Origin: an uncultured Clostridia bacterium
Lineage (GTDB): Bacteria > Bacillota > Clostridia > Oscillospirales > Acutalibacteraceae
Assembly (NCBI GenBank): GCA_947585965.1
Contig: CANPXK010000005.1
Span: 1-60,347, forward strand
DNA: 60,347 nucleotides
Direction of reading: 5' to 3'
Below are positions 426 through 54,525 of the stretch, piece after piece. Every line of letters begins with the position of its first letter. The first letter of the stretch is position 1. The position numbers and the translations under genes were made by a program. The notes below the pieces were generated by a model. That model saw only the letters and a list, made by a program, of their open reading frames with translations, searched no databases and was not told the origin of the DNA.

Positions 426-1046
426 TTATCTGAGAATTAATACCTGTCCCGGATATATTAAATCGGGATTTATCAGCTTATTAAGATTTATGAGATCAAC
501 TACAGTAGTTCCAAAACGCCGGGCTATCTTCCATAGAGAATCACCGCTGCGTACCGTGTATTTATCAAGAGCGGACATATAATCCTTGCCCGGTATTCTG
601 AGTATCTGACCGGGTTCCAACGAATCGGGATTTGTTATACCGTTGAAATCCGCAAGAGCCTCCGGTGTTGTATTGTACATTCTTGCTATATCAAAAAGAT
701 TATCTCCCTTTTTTACGATATATATGTCATCTCCCCCATTATAAGGGAGCTTTATCACACGTCCGACTTCAAGCCTGTCCGGATTTCTTATACCGTTAAG
801 CTCTGCAAGCTTTTCTGCGGTTGTTCCCCACATTTTTGCTATATTATAAAGAGTGTCCCCCTTTTGTACCGTATATTCTGCCTTTTCACCGGACTTTGGT
901 GCAATACGAAGTATCTGACCCGCCTTTATATCGTTGATATCGGCAATCCCGTTATACCGTGCTATGGTATTAACGTCCGTGCCGAATTTTTTTGCTATTT
1001 TCTCAAGCGTATCGCCCGGTTCAACAACATATATTATATTTTCCAT
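426..1046 (-). CDS. Protein of four tandem LysM domains
   Basis: 206 residues consisting almost entirely of four LysM repeats, each about 45 residues: YVVEPGDTLEKIAKKFGT, YTVQKGDTLYNIAKMWGT, YIVKKGDNLFDIARMYNT and YTVRSGDSLWKIARRFGT, each closing with a PGQILRI-type end. LysM modules bind the N-acetylglucosamine backbone of peptidoglycan or chitin-like glycans. No signal peptide or catalytic domain is present, so it could be a spore-coat/cortex-associated protein of the SafA kind, a phage-derived module, or exported by another route. The start at 1046 has AGGAGGG ten bases upstream. The gene is divergent from the pseudouridine synthase gene. LysM identity is sure; the role is not. Confidence 0.85.
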   Translation of the reverse strand: MENIIYVVEPGDTLEKIAKKFGTDVNTIARYNGIADINDIKAGQILRIAPKSGEKAEYTVQKGDTLYNIAKMWGTTAEKLAELNGIRNPDRLEVGRVIKLPYNGGDDIYIVKKGDNLFDIARMYNTTPEALADFNGITNPDSLEPGQILRIPGKDYMSALDKYTVRSGDSLWKIARRFGTTVVDLINLNKLINPDLIYPGQVLILR

Positions 1047-47305: not shown

Positions 47306-47794
47306 GTGCTGTCTGAAGAATTATACCGGGAAAACTATAATATAGTATTCGGCTATTTGTTCCGTCTGTGCAGAAACCATAGTATAGCCGAGGAACTTAC
47401 AGCGGAAACATTTCTTAAGGCTTTCTCTGAATTTTCATCATATAAGGGAGGAGGAAAAATTTCTACCTGGATATGTCAGATTGCAAAAAATGAATACCTG
47501 CAATATATCCGAAAACAAAAACATACGGAAAATACGGATGATTTTGAAAATCTTCCCGATGACAGCAGTATTGCGGATATCATTCAGGATAAATCCATGG
47601 CGCTTGAAATACATAAATTGCTGCATAACCTTGAGGAACCGTACAAGGAGGTTTTTATACTCAGAGTTTTTGCAGAATTAAGCTTCAGGGATATTTCCGT
47701 AATCATGGAAAAAACGGAAACATGGGCAAGAGTTACATACTACCGTGCGAAGGTAAGAATTCTGGAAGGATTAGGTGAGAAAAATGATAAATGA
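47306..47794 (+). CDS. ECF-type RNA polymerase sigma factor
   Basis: 162 residues with regions 2 and 4 only. Region 2: NIVFGYLFRLCRNHSIAEEL followed by TAETFLKAFSEFSSYKGGGK and WICQIAKNEYLQYIRK. Region 4: YKEVFILRVFAELSFRDISV followed by IMEKTETWARVTYYRAKVRI. The start is GTG at 47306, five bases after GGAGGTG. It overlaps the anti-sigma gene by 11 bases. The signal it answers to is unknown. Confidence 0.92.
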   Translation: MLSEELYRENYNIVFGYLFRLCRNHSIAEELTAETFLKAFSEFSSYKGGGKISTWICQIAKNEYLQYIRKQKHTENTDDFENLPDDSSIADIIQDKSMALEIHKLLHNLEEPYKEVFILRVFAELSFRDISVIMEKTETWARVTYYRAKVRILEGLGEKNDK

Positions 47795-48431
47795 CTGTAA
47801 TATTGCAAGAGATCTTATACCACAATACATTGAAAACCTTTTGAGTGACGGGTCGAGAGAATTCGTTGATACGCATTGCTCCGAATGTCCGGATTGCAAG
47901 AAAATATTGGATACCGCCATGGTGGATATTCAAACCAAAAACGAAAAAAGACAGGAAGAAATTTGGAGTGAGATAGCTAAAAAACAAAAAAGAAAAAAAA
48001 TTATGATTAAATCAGTAATAATATCCGCATCAGTCCTGCTTGTAATTACGGCAATATTTATATGTACTTTCATACTAAAAGGAAATACATGGTTTGTTAG
48101 TATGAATTTGAGTCAGGCGGACGGATATAAAACAAAAGCAGAATTATCGTCTGAAATAAACCATCCCGGTAAAGACGAGGTTAATGCGGCATCACAGGCG
48201 GTAATAAAGTATTTTCAGAACAATTTCGGCGGAAGCATATTGCTTAGTCTGAAATATAACGAGGAATTAACCTCTGCTAATATGCCAAGTATTGTTTTTG
48301 AAGGCGATTATTTTATGTTGCAGGAACCTGTAGCCGGAGATATGAATAGAATGAAAAACAACTGGCACTGGTATGTCGAGTATAACAAGACAACCGAAGA
48401 ATGGCAAATTATCGGCAGCGGATACGATTAA
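47784..48431 (+). CDS. Membrane anti-sigma factor with a zinc-finger (zf-HC2) domain
   Basis: 215 residues from ATG 47784 (AGGTGAGAAAA upstream; a GTG at 47775 is also open). The N-terminus MINDCNIARDLIPQYIENLL followed by DTHCSECPDCKKIL has the His-x3-Cys-x2-Cys zinc motif of ZAS anti-sigma factors. A membrane helix lies at about 75-97 (VIISASVLLVITAIFICTFI), and the outer domain of about 115 residues would sense the signal. It overlaps the sigma gene, which is normal for cognate pairs. Confidence 0.85.
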   Translation: MINDCNIARDLIPQYIENLLSDGSREFVDTHCSECPDCKKILDTAMVDIQTKNEKRQEEIWSEIAKKQKRKKIMIKSVIISASVLLVITAIFICTFILKGNTWFVSMNLSQADGYKTKAELSSEINHPGKDEVNAASQAVIKYFQNNFGGSILLSLKYNEELTSANMPSIVFEGDYFMLQEPVAGDMNRMKNNWHWYVEYNKTTEEWQIIGSGYD

Positions 48432-48513: not shown

Positions 48514-49455
48514 CTAAAGTATATTTTTGGATATAGTAAGCGGTCGTGTATACTTTCTTTTGAGAAAATATATTATGCCTATAATTATCATAACGGCGGT
48601 GCCCACCGCAAGCTCAATTATAATCGAACGGAGATAACCAAAATCCGCAAAGCTTGCATTGGTTATCTGTATAGCCTCCGTTACGGCTATTCCGCCGCCC
48701 TCGTTCTCAATAAGTATGGCGGTTCCGGCTATAAGTGCCGCATATTCTGCGGCAAGGAAAACCAAAAACGAAATAATCTCGCATATCACCGCACTCAGCC
48801 TTGTTGCCCTCTTTCCCGTAACGACAAATCCGGCAAAGCACAATAATACAACAACACCGCCAAATATGCCGTAAAGTGAAATAAACTGATAAAGAAGTAT
48901 GTATATTGATGCTCCGAAAAGAGCACCGAAAACCGCCCCCGCTATTCCGGCGGGCATATTCTGTTTTTTCTTCTCAAACATATCTCGCCTTTTTGCATAT
49001 TGCCGCCTTTTTCTGACAATACACCTGTCGCATATAGGCACAAGGTTACGCCCGACAACATATAAGCCGGTTTTTTTGTTTCTTGAGCAAACACCGCATA
49101 TTGGTGTAAGTAAATCGCTTTTGCACAATTCCATTATAAATTTTGCAACCGACTTAAGATTTTCTCTGTCTATTTCCGAATCAACGGTCATCTTAACGGA
49201 CAGAATTATTTTTTTATTCTTATATACAGCTTTTGTTATAAAACTCTTATTTTCCGCTGCAAAGCTCTTAAGTTTTCCTGAAACAGCACCAATATCGCCC
49301 GCAGCAGAATTGAGGGAAAGCAAATATCTTTTTTCCTTGCTGTTAAATTCTATCATCGTATGAAAACCCTCATAGCTGTTAAAAGCCGTTTGTGATTTAC
49401 TGTTGTAACGGTAGCCTATCGTTATGAGAAATTCACGAAATTCACTTTCCGTCAA
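48514..49455 (-). CDS. Zinc-ribbon membrane protein, paralog 2
   Basis: 313 residues. An N-terminal soluble domain (1-115) is followed by a zinc ribbon (CGVCSRNKKTGLYVVGRNLV and PICDRC: two CxxC pairs), a basic stretch, and four to five membrane helices (AGIAGAVFGALFGASIYILL, FGGVVVLLCFAGFVVTG, AVICEIISFLVFLAAEYAAL, IIIELAVGTAVMIIIGIIYFL). Same architecture as its upstream neighbour, 31 bases away. I know no function for this family; domain order suggests a membrane sensor or transporter-associated protein. Confidence 0.75.
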   Translation of the reverse strand: MTESEFREFLITIGYRYNSKSQTAFNSYEGFHTMIEFNSKEKRYLLSLNSAAGDIGAVSGKLKSFAAENKSFITKAVYKNKKIILSVKMTVDSEIDRENLKSVAKFIMELCKSDLLTPICGVCSRNKKTGLYVVGRNLVPICDRCIVRKRRQYAKRRDMFEKKKQNMPAGIAGAVFGALFGASIYILLYQFISLYGIFGGVVVLLCFAGFVVTGKRATRLSAVICEIISFLVFLAAEYAALIAGTAILIENEGGGIAVTEAIQITNASFADFGYLRSIIIELAVGTAVMIIIGIIYFLKRKYTRPLTISKNIL

Positions 49456-49487: not shown

Positions 49488-50426
49488 TTATGTCAATTTT
49501 ACAGAGCGATTTTTTACTTTACTTTCCTTTATTAAAGCTATTGCCGATGCTATTGATGTTGCAGCAAAGGTGATAATGCCGAAAATATTATTATATATCA
49601 AAGTTCCGGTGTACTCTGAATCCTGCATAAAGTACGGTATAAGGTCAAGTGCATCACGGAATGTCACAGAAATTCCTTCCGCTGTCAAGGCATTGTACAT
49701 ATCTATACCGGCAGCAATATACATTCCCATGAAAAGGAAAATAAAGGAAATAATTATTGACAAAACAATACCGGCGGTGGAAATCTTTTTTCCCAACCAT
49801 TTAAAGCCCATTACTCCTCCGAAACCGGCTACTAATCCGGCCATCCATCCTATTCTGCCCATTACGGAGAACAAAATCCATATCAAAGCTCCGCATATTC
49901 CGCCAAGTATGGCTCCGAGAACACCCATAGGATAATTCATCCGTATCGAGGAATCCGATAAAATATTTTCCACTACATTGTTTTGCAGTGTGCCGTAACA
50001 TCCGGTACACAAGGCAGATACATTATTTTCAATGGAATATACATCGACATCACCATACCTGCCGCAGACTGAACAGCACGGAGTACATTCAAACTGATTT
50101 ACGCAGTACATAATAAAATTTACAGCATCATTTACGCCCGGAGTAATATCCGAGGTAATCTGATAGCATATATGTATCTGTTTTCCCTCAAAAAAAGCGG
50201 TTTTCAGCATATTCTGTCTTTGAGAAGCAAATTGATGGAGTGCGGTTCTCAGGGGGTCAATCATGCCATCCTTGGCAGGTCTGCAGGCAGCAGTTACATT
50301 ATACTCTTTGGAAGCCGGATTTACCCGTACTATAAATGCAATGTTATTTATTTTCCTGTATGCCACAGCTGTAACGTCATCATATCCGAATCCCATCCCC
50401 TGAAGCTGCTCTCTATACTTAGCCAT
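49488..50426 (-). CDS. Zinc-ribbon membrane protein, paralog 1
   Basis: 312 residues, laid out like paralog 2: N-terminal domain (1-115, starting MAKYREQLQGMGFGYDDVTA), zinc ribbon (CSVCGRYGDVDVYSIENNVS and ALCTGC), then membrane helices (MGVLGAILGGICGALIWILF, MAGLVAGFGGVMGFKWLG, GIVLSIIISFIFLFMGMYIA, FGIITFAATSIASAIALIKE). ATGGAGGTAAAATT precedes the start. The two genes arose by tandem duplication and have since diverged a good deal in sequence. Function unknown. Confidence 0.75.
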   Translation of the reverse strand: MAKYREQLQGMGFGYDDVTAVAYRKINNIAFIVRVNPASKEYNVTAACRPAKDGMIDPLRTALHQFASQRQNMLKTAFFEGKQIHICYQITSDITPGVNDAVNFIMYCVNQFECTPCCSVCGRYGDVDVYSIENNVSALCTGCYGTLQNNVVENILSDSSIRMNYPMGVLGAILGGICGALIWILFSVMGRIGWMAGLVAGFGGVMGFKWLGKKISTAGIVLSIIISFIFLFMGMYIAAGIDMYNALTAEGISVTFRDALDLIPYFMQDSEYTGTLIYNNIFGIITFAATSIASAIALIKESKVKNRSVKLT

Positions 50427-50575: not shown

Positions 50576-53500
50576 TTATTTGGATTTTACTTTCCAAAGC
50601 TCGGAAGCATACTCGAGTATTGTACGGTCGGAAGAGAACTTACCGCAGTTTGCAGTATTCTTAAGACACTTATAACCGAATGCTCTTCTGTCCTTGTATT
50701 CGTTGTTTACTCTGATCTTCGTTTCAATATACTCGGGAAGATCTCTGAGTATGAAGTAATGGTCGGGCTTATGCCAGCTTGCACCCTTGAGTAGAGAATC
50801 GTGAAGTTCCTTGAATGAGCCTTCGCCCTTCTTTCCGCCGTCTGTGAAACGACCGTCTATAAGGGTATCAATAACTCTCTTAATTTCCTCGTTCTCCTCA
50901 TAAATCTTCTCGGGATCATAATTTTCTTTAAGCTCGTTAATTTCCTCAACTCTTGCACCGAAGATATATTCATTTTCTTCGCCCGCACATTCAGCTATTT
51001 CAATATTAGCACCATCATAGGTACCTATTGTAACCGCACCGTTAGCCATAAACTTCATGTTTGAAGTACCTGAAGCCTCTGTGCCGGCTGTTGAGATCTG
51101 CTCGTGAATATCTGCTGCCGGAATAATTTTCTCAGCATAGGATACATTGTAGTTTGCTACGAATACGACCCTCATCTTCTGATTTACTTCGGGGTCATTA
51201 TTTACAAGATTAGCAATCTCGTTAATATACTTGATAACAGCCTTAGCTCTTGCATAGCCGGGAGCTGCCTTTGCACCGAAGATAAATGCAGTCGGTGTGA
51301 AATTCGGAAGCTTGCCCTCTTTAATGCGGAAGTACAGTGCCATGATTGAGAAAGCATTCATAAGCTGTCTTTTGTACTCATGCAGACGCTTAACCTGGAT
51401 ATCGAACATGAAGGAAGGATCAATGTAAACATGATCGTGCTTCTGAATGAAATCGGAAAGCTCTCTCTTTTTGATATACTTAATCTCATTGAACTTATCA
51501 ATGGTTTTTTCATTGATATGATCCTCAAGCTTCTTGAGCTCGTCAAGGTTGCGTATCCATTTCTTACCGATAAGATCCGTAATAAACTCGGAATACTCGG
51601 GGTTGCAAAGTGCAAGCCAGCGACGCTGTGTTACACCATTCGTCTTATTCTGGAAACGCTCCGGATAAAGCTCATACCACTCCTTGAGGGTTTCATCCTT
51701 AAGAATCTGAGTATGGATAGCAGCAACACCGTTTACATAGCTTGATACATATGTAGCCATACGAGCCATGTGTACAACATGACCGTCGTCTATTCTCATA
51801 TTGTCAATCTTTTCCTGCTCAACGCCCTTATTCTTAAGCTCCGAAAGAAGTCTGTCGTTGATTTTTACGATTATATCATATACATCGGGGAGGATGCTTG
51901 TCATAAGCTTGATATCCCACTTTTCAAGAGCCTCCTGCATAACAGTATGGTTAGTATACGCAAAGGTTCTCTGAGCAATATCAAATGCGGTATCAAAGCT
52001 GAGACCGTCATTCTGGAGCAGTCTGATAAGCTCGGGGATTGAAATTGTGGGGTGGGTATCATTGAGCTGTATAGCTGTTTCAACGGGGAACTGTGAATAA
52101 TCGTTTCCGTGTCTTCTCTTATATCTCTTGATAATATCCTGAAGTGAAGCGGAGGAGAAGAAATACTGCTGCTTGAGTCTGAGCACCTTTCCTTCATAGC
52201 TGTTATCGTTCGGATAAAGAACCTTTGAGATATTCTCTGCATCATTCTTTTCCTTGACAGCCTCATCATACTTGCTGTCATTGAACTCAAGGAAATTGAA
52301 GTTATTGACAGCCTCTGCCTCCCACAGACGGAGAGTATTGATATTATCCGTACCATATCCGATTATAGCCATATCATATGGCACAGCTCTTACTGTCTGA
52401 TCGGCAAAGTTGATTGTAACGGTATCCTCCGTTCTTCTTACACACCACGGGTCTCCGAAACGCTGCCAATCATCGGCAACCTCAACCTGGAAGCCGTCAA
52501 TTATTTCCTGCTTGAACAGACCATACTTATAGCGTATTCCATAGCCGTCAAGCGGTACATCATGTGTAGCTGCGGAATCAAGGAAACAGGCGGCAAGTCT
52601 GCCAAGACCTCCGTTTCCGAGAGCGGCATCGTCGATTTCCTCAAACACATTGATATCTACACCTTTATCGGCGAGAAGTTTTGTTGTCTGCTCCAGAACT
52701 CCCATATTGTACAGGTTGTTGTAAACCATACGACCCATAAGGAATTCTGCCGACAGATAATAGGCTCTTCTCTGATTTGCATGATTTCTCTTGCTTTCAG
52801 CCCATCTCTCCGAGATATCGCCCATGATTGCCTTGCCGAGTGCATCGTGAAGCTCTGCGGGTGAAAGCTCTCCGAGTTCTTTGCAATACTCGTTCTTTGC
52901 TGTAAGCACGAGGTTGTCGATAATGGCATTTTTCTTCATTTTTTTGTCATCCTCCAGCCTTCTGTAATTTTTGGACAAATTATAAAGTTTCTTCGCAAGT
53001 TTAGGAGTTGCGGCTCCTTTTTTCATTCTCCAGGTCCAGTTTCCGCCGAGGGTTGACGGTATGTTTATTCTTGCCTCGGATCCGAGCCCGAGGATATCCT
53101 GCATCTGAACTATTGCATAATCGCTCACGCTTGAATAAGCCGTGCGGATAAAGCCCCAGTTATACCCCTCTGTTTTATCAAGGCGACAATATTCTTCGGC
53201 AAATGCAACATCCTTTTCGGATGCCTGACTGAGCCAACCCATAATGGTATCGTTGTCATGCGTACCCGTATAGCATACGCTGTTACTGGTATAATTATGG
53301 GGAAGATAATTGCTGTCTTCCTTGGAATCGAATGCAAATTCAAGAATTTTCATACCCGGATACCCGGATTCCTCAAGAAGCTTCTTTACGCCCGGTGTCT
53401 GAAGACCGAGATCCTCCGCAATAATCGGAATATCTCCCAGACGCTGCTTCATTTTTTCAAAGAATCTCATCTTGGGACCGTCTATCCACTCGCCCTTGAC

Positions 53501-54433
53501 GGCATCCTTTGCGCCATAGGGTATAGCATAGAACTGATCGAATGCTCTGAAGTGGTCTATACGGGTAACATCAAACATTCTTGCTGCACCGGCTATTCTT
53601 CTTATCCACCAGTCAAAGCCTGTTTCCTCAAGATAGATCCAGTCATAAAGGGGATTTCCCCAAAGCTGTCCCGTTTCCGAGAAATAATCCGGCGGGCAGC
53701 CCGCAACGCAAACAGGTTTGCGTTCATCATCGAGCCAGAACACATCGGGATTTGCCCATGTATCGGCACTGTCCATTGCCACATATATAGGCATATCTCC
53801 GAACAGCTTTATACCGTTATCATTGGCATATTCCTTGAGCTCAGCCCATTGCTTATAGAACATGAACTGTGTCCATTTCCAGAACATCACGTCCTCATAA
53901 AGCAACCTGAGATAGTAATCTATTGTATCGGGATTGCGGTATTTGATAAGTGGATCGGGCCATTCCGTCCATGCCTTATCGTCAAAGAATTTCTTGACCG
54001 ACATATACAAGGCGTAATCTGTCAGCCAACTGTTCTCATCCCTCATAAAATCCCAGAATTCCTGCTGATTTTTCTGCTTGAAAGCCTCATAAGCCTGTCT
54101 GAGAACATCAAATCTCACATTGTATATTCTTTCATAATCAATATACTGAGCATTTGAACCCCAATCAATCTTTTTCAGCTCTTCACGAGTCAGCAAGCCG
54201 TCTTCGCAAAGCAGGTCAAGGTCTATCATATACGGATTTCCCGCATATGTTGAAAACGACTGATACGGCGAATCACCGTAGCTTGTCGGACCTACCGGCA
54301 GCAGCTGCCAGTACGTCTGACCCGAAGCCTTGAGAAAGTCAATAAACTCATAGGCTGCCTTGCCCATTGTGCCTATTCCGTAAGGAGAAGGCAATGAAGT
54401 TATCGGCATTAATATGCCTGCACTTCTTGGCAT
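50576..54433 (-). CDS. Fusion of 4-alpha-glucanotransferase (MalQ) and glycogen phosphorylase (GlgP)
   Basis: 1285 residues in one open frame. Residues 1-492 are a complete amylomaltase (GH77) with catalytic Asp293 (RIDHFRAF), Glu340 (AEDLG) and Asp395 (THDNDT), the same numbers as in Thermus aquaticus MalQ. Residues 499-1285 are a complete GT35 phosphorylase starting MKKNAIIDNLVLTAKNEYC, with GNGGLGRLAACFLDS, HEYKRQLMN and the PLP lysine K1127 in EASGTSNMKFMANG. MalQ disproportionates malto-oligosaccharides and GlgP releases glucose-1-phosphate. Only LEDDKK separates them, and within that joint GGAGG (52951-52955) lies 11 bases before an in-frame ATG (52937-52939), so separate GlgP could also be made. 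See findings. Confidence 0.93.
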   Translation of the reverse strand: MPRSAGILMPITSLPSPYGIGTMGKAAYEFIDFLKASGQTYWQLLPVGPTSYGDSPYQSFSTYAGNPYMIDLDLLCEDGLLTREELKKIDWGSNAQYIDYERIYNVRFDVLRQAYEAFKQKNQQEFWDFMRDENSWLTDYALYMSVKKFFDDKAWTEWPDPLIKYRNPDTIDYYLRLLYEDVMFWKWTQFMFYKQWAELKEYANDNGIKLFGDMPIYVAMDSADTWANPDVFWLDDERKPVCVAGCPPDYFSETGQLWGNPLYDWIYLEETGFDWWIRRIAGAARMFDVTRIDHFRAFDQFYAIPYGAKDAVKGEWIDGPKMRFFEKMKQRLGDIPIIAEDLGLQTPGVKKLLEESGYPGMKILEFAFDSKEDSNYLPHNYTSNSVCYTGTHDNDTIMGWLSQASEKDVAFAEEYCRLDKTEGYNWGFIRTAYSSVSDYAIVQMQDILGLGSEARINIPSTLGGNWTWRMKKGAATPKLAKKLYNLSKNYRRLEDDKKMKKNAIIDNLVLTAKNEYCKELGELSPAELHDALGKAIMGDISERWAESKRNHANQRRAYYLSAEFLMGRMVYNNLYNMGVLEQTTKLLADKGVDINVFEEIDDAALGNGGLGRLAACFLDSAATHDVPLDGYGIRYKYGLFKQEIIDGFQVEVADDWQRFGDPWCVRRTEDTVTINFADQTVRAVPYDMAIIGYGTDNINTLRLWEAEAVNNFNFLEFNDSKYDEAVKEKNDAENISKVLYPNDNSYEGKVLRLKQQYFFSSASLQDIIKRYKRRHGNDYSQFPVETAIQLNDTHPTISIPELIRLLQNDGLSFDTAFDIAQRTFAYTNHTVMQEALEKWDIKLMTSILPDVYDIIVKINDRLLSELKNKGVEQEKIDNMRIDDGHVVHMARMATYVSSYVNGVAAIHTQILKDETLKEWYELYPERFQNKTNGVTQRRWLALCNPEYSEFITDLIGKKWIRNLDELKKLEDHINEKTIDKFNEIKYIKKRELSDFIQKHDHVYIDPSFMFDIQVKRLHEYKRQLMNAFSIMALYFRIKEGKLPNFTPTAFIFGAKAAPGYARAKAVIKYINEIANLVNNDPEVNQKMRVVFVANYNVSYAEKIIPAADIHEQISTAGTEASGTSNMKFMANGAVTIGTYDGANIEIAECAGEENEYIFGARVEEINELKENYDPEKIYEENEEIKRVIDTLIDGRFTDGGKKGEGSFKELHDSLLKGASWHKPDHYFILRDLPEYIETKIRVNNEYKDRRAFGYKCLKNTANCGKFSSDRTILEYASELWKVKSK

Positions 54434-54525
54434 AGATAAATCATCTCCGTTCTATTATATTATATTATTCTGCTTTTTTCCATCTACAGTTTGCATTTTA
54501 CTCATACTTTTTACATTCGTCATAT

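Follow-up and report, generated by a model that had tools for sequence, protein, structure and literature searches.

The window analysed here is a stretch of 60,347 nucleotides from an uncultured Clostridia bacterium of the family Acutalibacteraceae (contig CANPXK010000005.1 of assembly GCA_947585965.1), and it carries on its minus strand a gene in which malQ and glgP are fused into one open reading frame (ORF) of 1285 codons (Table 1). From sequence comparisons we consider it probable that this fused gene gives rise to two products, namely the fusion protein and free GlgP, the latter being made from an internal start retained from the formerly separate glgP. The linker between the two enzyme parts is homologous to the ribosome-binding site (RBS) that precedes glgP in unfused relatives, and the codons around the Shine-Dalgarno (SD) sequence in this linker are under synonymous constraint.

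Both enzyme domains are complete, as the original prediction had claimed. The Pfam family Glyco_hydro_77 (PF02446) was matched with an E value of 2.4e-184 over profile positions 1-463 of 465 and Phosphorylase (PF00343) at residues 588-1282 with an E value of 3.9e-290 over positions 2-713 of 713, i.e. both domains are nearly or fully full-length. NCBIfam agrees with Pfam, and TIGR02093 reached 1027 bits on the GlgP part compared to a cut-off of 553. The GH77 domain contains the motifs RIDHFR (residues 291-296), AEDLG (339-343) and GTHDNDT (390-396), which we take to be the motifs of the catalytic Asp, Glu and Asp of this family. In the GT35 domain the motif EASGTxNMK, presumably the one with the pyridoxal phosphate-binding lysine, is present as EASGTSNMKFMANG at residues 1119-1132. 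The MalQ part could be aligned with solved amylomaltases as far as residue 488, and residue 530 of the fusion aligns with residue 35 of the solved bacterial phosphorylase 2c4m, so that the usual GlgP N-terminus fits a start near residue 499. The joint is indeed short, comprising six linker residues, and the predicted GGAGG could be confirmed 11 bases ahead of the in-frame internal ATG, next to a run of seven A. Within the draft assembly the fusion is the sole GH77 match (E up to 0.001), and a second, separate phosphorylase, 44% identical, is encoded elsewhere in the same draft.

The source genome is a draft in 196 contigs, which leaves room for an assembly or sequencing indel that joined two separate genes. 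However, the joint lies on a contig in 32 of 36 same-genus genomes (in G008, G010, G020 and G029 it falls off the matched contigs), and all 32 read through it without a stop. Moreover, additional genera and members of two other families are fused as well. The read-through in relatives rules out an assembly artefact, and we regard its remaining probability as negligible. The ORF check of the joint covered 29 of the 32 genomes, those that gave loci, and G013, G015 and G027 were judged from the joint table. Among 79 named loci, 38 were tagged as fused by script, many of them being the same contigs as in the same-genus genome set. The named fused relatives are metagenome-assembled or uncultured drafts, many of them labelled as rumen or gut, and the nearest one (L032) shows a 97% match in the best segment. 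Breaks of the GlgP frame were observed downstream of the joint in L025, L026, L029, L069 and L193, each in single metagenome assemblies, and may reflect sequencing error or decay.

The search for the same fusion beyond the genus was likewise successful. Within the order, seven more genera of the family carry it with the two parts arranged in the same order, and so do two other families with one genus each. The family sample comprised 200 genomes, 62 of which were matched at E up to 1e-200, and the ORF check showed 12 genomes from 8 genera to be fused. Among these 12, the contig of G906 breaks off shortly behind the joint, and the frame of G897 is broken inside GlgP. The match of G891 starts inside GlgP, and this genome was left out of the fused/unfused call. 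Long open frames had suggested fusions in G868, G931, G946 and G962 too, but the fetched loci contain two genes each, and the same is true for the apparent fusions of L115-L121, L123-L125, L178, L179, L190 and L191, among others, where frame lengths had run through stops. Outside the family, an order sample of 394 genomes contained the fused G372 and G420 among the matches listed, which reach down to E 1.5e-189. No further fusion was found in a class sample (391 genomes, threshold 1e-300) or in a phylum sample (398 genomes, threshold 1e-250), thresholds at which weaker matches could escape. The 11 in-frame malQ/glgP loci with one stop between the genes stem from a tblastn ranking that may be biased towards neighbours in the same frame, and nothing is drawn from them. 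Furthermore, L114, L146, L147, L150 and L151 have a short insertion in the GlgP part near window residue 871, at which their matches are split.

The origin of the linker can be read from the closest unfused genera, represented by the seven loci L167-L173. There, malQ ends with R-L-E-D/E (R-M-E-D in L168), followed by the stop or by up to three more residues, and the codons of this tail are at the same time the glgP SD, which reads exactly TGGAGGA in six loci and TGGAAGA in one. Next comes an ATG in frame with glgP, either a few bases further on or in overlap with the stop (ATGA). It lies 9-10 nucleotides past the GGAGG in the six loci that have this sequence, if the first fitting ATG is taken as the glgP start (other ATGs exist further in). 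In the window genus and in the fusions of g29, g40, g450 and g403, the CTG/TTG-GAG is kept and 18 nucleotides lie between this Leu codon and the ATG, a spacing taken from the genus rows other than L008, the protein of which carries the same linker. GGG replaces GAG after the Leu codon in L018 and L019. The linker residues following R-L differ between genera, whereas the spacing from CTG/TTG to ATG is fixed. Because the glgP SD already sits in the last malQ codons of the nearest unfused relatives, the linker represents the translated former RBS, in line with the original prediction that two adjacent genes had merged with the old glgP RBS and ATG retained.

The same prediction explained the merger by loss of the malQ stop. 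More likely, this stop was put out of frame by a spacer insertion of 1-2 bases rather than mutated. This step is read from extant sequences. It is suggested because the unfused sisters carry the SD in the malQ tail and because the unfused L169, which has the ATGA overlap, and the fused L111 align by eye through the whole joint with few substitutions and one extra spacer base in L111.

The codon choice at the joint was compared across species. The alignment comprised 48 sequences of the window genus and the sister genus, not all of them complete, and the lowest synonymous diversity among about 1000 windows was always located within codons 486-496, regardless of whether windows of 5, 7, 9 or 11 codons were used. 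When the set was limited to 34 sequences differing by more than 5%, the diversity in the 9-codon window 488-496 was 0.26 of the expectation, and the corresponding values were 0.28 for all 35 full-length sequences and 0.13 for the 27 sequences of clade A; none of 2000 permutations was as low in any of these three sets, which are nested. The constraint covers the SD codons, skips the A-run (codons 497-498) and continues past the ATG at codons 503, 504 and 506. Residue 499 is Met in all 48 aligned sequences, whereas the neighbouring linker residues vary. Since the constraint acts on synonymous codon choice, it is not explained by selection on the protein, and the internal SD and start codon are conserved beyond protein-level need in these three sets, whereas clade B shows no significant minimum at the joint. 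Hence, judged from codon usage, selection keeps the internal SD/start site across species.

Pairing energies point in the same direction. The 3' tail of the 16S rRNA gave no match in the draft, and the standard anti-SD was assumed. The window gene has 46 in-frame ATG, GTG and TTG codons, and SD pairing is strongest for the internal ATG (-11.5 kcal/mol vs -6.9 for the next one and -11.0 for the main start), and only 0.6% of 3795 positions pair as well as the internal SD. The joint Met shows the best SD pairing of all Met codons in 19 of 25 fused genes; for L144 and L182, which have no SD-bearing Met at the joint, the score was taken from a Met deeper in GlgP. The fusions L122 and L128 from other families have an SD-like stretch before the ATG as well (-12.5 each). 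In the 23 fused genes other than L144 and L182, at most 29% of the background positions are predicted to be as unstructured at the RNA level as the joint, and at most 10% in 16 of these genes. A promoter scan was uninformative, with 16 promoter-like sites compared to 11.0 (standard deviation 4.0) in shuffled sequences, and listed no coding-strand promoter-like site within 900 bases ahead of the joint ATG.

MalQ converts short maltodextrins to glucose and longer chains by disproportionation. Phosphorylase releases glucose-1-phosphate from longer chains but stalls when the chains are short. We propose that malQ and glgP were ancestrally neighbours or overlapped, the glgP SD lying within the last malQ codons (R-L-E-D/E, then the stop), and that a spacer insertion of 1-2 bases would have brought malQ into the glgP frame. 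Ribosomes starting at the main ATG would then produce the 1285-residue MalQ-GlgP, those starting at the retained internal SD would produce free GlgP of 787 residues, and MalQ would be present solely in its GlgP-tethered form. That both proteins are made, as initially suggested, is made probable by the synonymous constraint at the joint. In such a cell, MalQ would lengthen short maltodextrins, and tethered plus free phosphorylase would turn the longer chains into glucose-1-phosphate. The fusion would give obligate proximity of the two enzymes, which may aid the flux, and the internal starts would add free GlgP, resulting in an excess of phosphorylase over MalQ and possibly in GlgP dimers of mixed composition. 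An AlphaFold prediction of residues 1-1200 as one chain, which covers neither the C-terminal 85 residues nor GlgP dimers, had a mean predicted local distance difference test score (pLDDT) of 84.6 and a predicted template modelling score (pTM) of 0.58. The pLDDT fell below 50 at residues 495-501 in the linker and in five other short stretches. This model fits a linker that acts as a flexible tether between two domains without a built-in channel. The original idea that shortened maltodextrins are handed over directly from one active site to the other finds no support in it, given that the linker is predicted to be disordered and that the prediction shows no fixed domain arrangement.

Several observations weigh against the use of the internal start. 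In the window sequence alone, SD and ATG at the joint are unremarkable: 33% of 5000 synonymous shuffles gave at least one GGAGG 5-13 nucleotides ahead of an in-frame ATG, and 11.7% gave it at codon 499. The SD-ATG spacing of 11 nucleotides exceeds the 9-10 nucleotides of the six unfused sisters with GGAGG. Six of the 25 fused genes (L018, L020, L021, L122, L144 and L182) have another Met with better pairing or no site at the joint. Two of these lineages, L144 and L182, are fused without internal SD; the frame of L182 is also broken inside GlgP, and L144 (G896) lacks the ATG as well. Its joint reads GTT GAA GAG GAT AAG ATA, i.e. the old glgP SD and ATG are both gone, which makes L144 a natural fusion-only case. 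For the 6 sequences of clade B, the window of lowest diversity is found at another place and lacks significance (342 of 2000 permutations), and L018 and L019, which belong to this clade, carry a changed SD. Moreover, synonymous constraint points to some nucleic-acid function, but does not say which one.

The two lineages fused without signal, the site that is not unusual in a single sequence and the lack of a significant joint minimum in clade B are all compatible with a plain fusion, in which the 1285-residue protein is the sole product. The joint SD and ATG would then be a relic that persists through chance or through constraint on the linker protein. We nevertheless consider such a relic unlikely, because it accounts neither for synonymous diversity that no permutation undercut in three nested sets nor for a Met that is invariant at residue 499 although the adjacent linker residues change. 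The internal SD could also serve as an elongation pause, not as a start site, giving the MalQ domain time for folding before the GlgP part appears. Its location at the domain boundary and the concentration of the strongest constraint on the codons around it would suit this function. However, a pause leaves unexplained why an invariant ATG follows at fixed spacing, why synonymous diversity is low past the ATG and why little RNA structure is predicted around it, and we assign it an even somewhat smaller chance than the relic. Finally, slippage on the A-run would release free MalQ by shifting some ribosomes to the frame in which the old TGA overlap is read, and the joint does offer seven A, an upstream SD and the still existing ATGA. 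Most relatives, in contrast, have AAA AAG before the ATG (among the Lys rows of codon 498, AAG in 33 and AAA in 7), and codons 497 and 498 are without synonymous constraint (0.34 vs 0.32 and 0.29 vs 0.32, respectively). The missing constraint at the A-run led us to reject slippage as a conserved function, and it appears very improbable altogether. The fused gene with a retained internal start for free GlgP is hence the reading we prefer.

How often the genes were fused was addressed with two trees, both calculated under LG+G4 without a mixture model. On the GlgP tree (59 rows, quick search) the fused state needs at least six changes, five of which are forced by starred branches, and on the concatenated tree (30 rows) four changes, three of them forced. 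A single origin of the fusion without reversal was rejected by the approximately unbiased (AU) test, in which p was 9.5e-5 when all 13 fused rows of the family were forced into one clade and 0.006 for the 12 rows without L144. On the GlgP tree, L122 and L128, the fusions from other families, are placed separately from the main group. Repeated fusion and fusion followed by splitting would look alike, because splitting would be no harder than fusing as long as the internal start persists. It is conceivable, though we put this forward tentatively and regard it as somewhat doubtful, that the joint acts as a hinge that is reversible because the glgP RBS doubles as the interdomain linker. Through spacer indels of 1-2 bases, a lineage would change between separate genes and the fused two-product gene and retain its phosphorylase in either state, and the hinge would have been thrown several times in the order. 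Thus, there would be lineages with coupled genes, lineages with the fusion and free GlgP and, as in L144, lineages with the fusion only.

Table 1. Coordinates of the fused malQ-glgP gene and its elements in the window
Feature	Position	Strand	Remarks
Fused malQ-glgP ORF	50576-54433	-	1285 codons + stop, open from ATG; same fusion throughout genus
GH77 domain (MalQ, 4-alpha-glucanotransferase)	53012-54409	-	Residues 9-474, Pfam Glyco_hydro_77
Linker LEDDKK, residues 493-498	52940-52957	-	Translated former SD and spacer
Internal SD core GGAGG	52951-52955	-	Anti-SD duplex -11.5 kcal/mol; synonymous constraint
Internal ATG, codon 499, former glgP start	52937-52939	-	Matches glgP start ATG of unfused sisters
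GlgP part (GT35 phosphorylase), residues 499-1285	50579-52939	-	Predicted free product, 787 residues
GGAG of SD preceding main (malQ) start	54445-54448	-	

Elsewhere in the window, 48514-49455 and 49488-50426 on the minus strand encode two adjacent paralogues, each about 312 residues long (E 6e-20, with 25% identity over 265 columns), which have paired CxxC motifs and, by eye, apparent membrane segments, and gave no Pfam match at 0.01. On the plus strand, a sigma-70-like factor overlaps a zf-HC2 protein at 47306-48431, likely an extracytoplasmic function (ECF) sigma/anti-sigma pair.

Fusions of alpha-glucan enzymes are known, for example GlgB-MalQ in Neisseria and TreS-Pep2/Mak, which are mentioned in a review from 2024 (PMC11046441). 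Like the GlgX/4-alpha-glucanotransferase models of NCBIfam, they join MalQ or neighbouring pathway steps as in the window, but the partner domains differ. MalQ-GlgP is absent from the 12 places that contain fusion, fused or bifunctional within the 300,000 of 445,374 characters of this review that were covered, and none of the 14 NCBIfam models matched represents a MalQ-GlgP fusion. It was also not found in the open-licence PMC literature, with subscription papers and protein databases lying outside this search; there, the phrase malQ-glgP refers to the operon of Streptococcus mutans (PMC4451989). This operon and malMP of S. pneumoniae are described as tandem operons (PMC4451989), and they contain the same gene pair as the window fusion, with the sister genera being likewise unfused. 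However, two genes and two proteins exist in these cases, compared to one fused protein with an internal start in the window. The fused and unfused relatives together show how an operon pair can turn into a fused gene with the old RBS as linker, and provide evidence of selection keeping this site.

The principle that an internal start yields a second product is already known, for example from Cas11b, an internal in-frame product of cas8b that was demonstrated experimentally (PMC11899642). As proposed for the window gene, one frame specifies a long protein together with an additional product that begins at an internal Met. In contrast to Cas11b, the free GlgP of the window is a predicted product, and its start corresponds to the start of a separate gene in relatives.

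By analogy, the plastidial Pho1-Dpe1 complexes of plants are the closest functional parallel, in which GT35 and GH77 enzymes are physically coupled as well. In sweet potato, the complex acts on maltotriose and maltotetraose, unlike free Pho1, and the turnover of Dpe1 on maltotetraose is raised (PMC5417683). For rice, a 1:1 complex is described, the high-resolution structure of which is said to be not yet determined (PMC12892837), and the PDB entries 9lpw, 9lpz and 9m80 list both Pho1 and Dpe1 chain types, as judged from the chain names. The plant complex consists of two proteins held together non-covalently, whereas the window system, known from its sequence, is one polypeptide, probably accompanied by free phosphorylase. 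With fused, split and signal-free relatives at hand, the benefit of tethering, and likewise that of additional free phosphorylase, is open to direct testing, and if the hinge proves true, these lineages would form a natural series to ask what covalent tethering of a metabolon buys. The fusion can be seen as a bacterial covalent counterpart of plant Pho1-Dpe1 and lends support to the view that amylomaltase and phosphorylase function well when placed next to each other.

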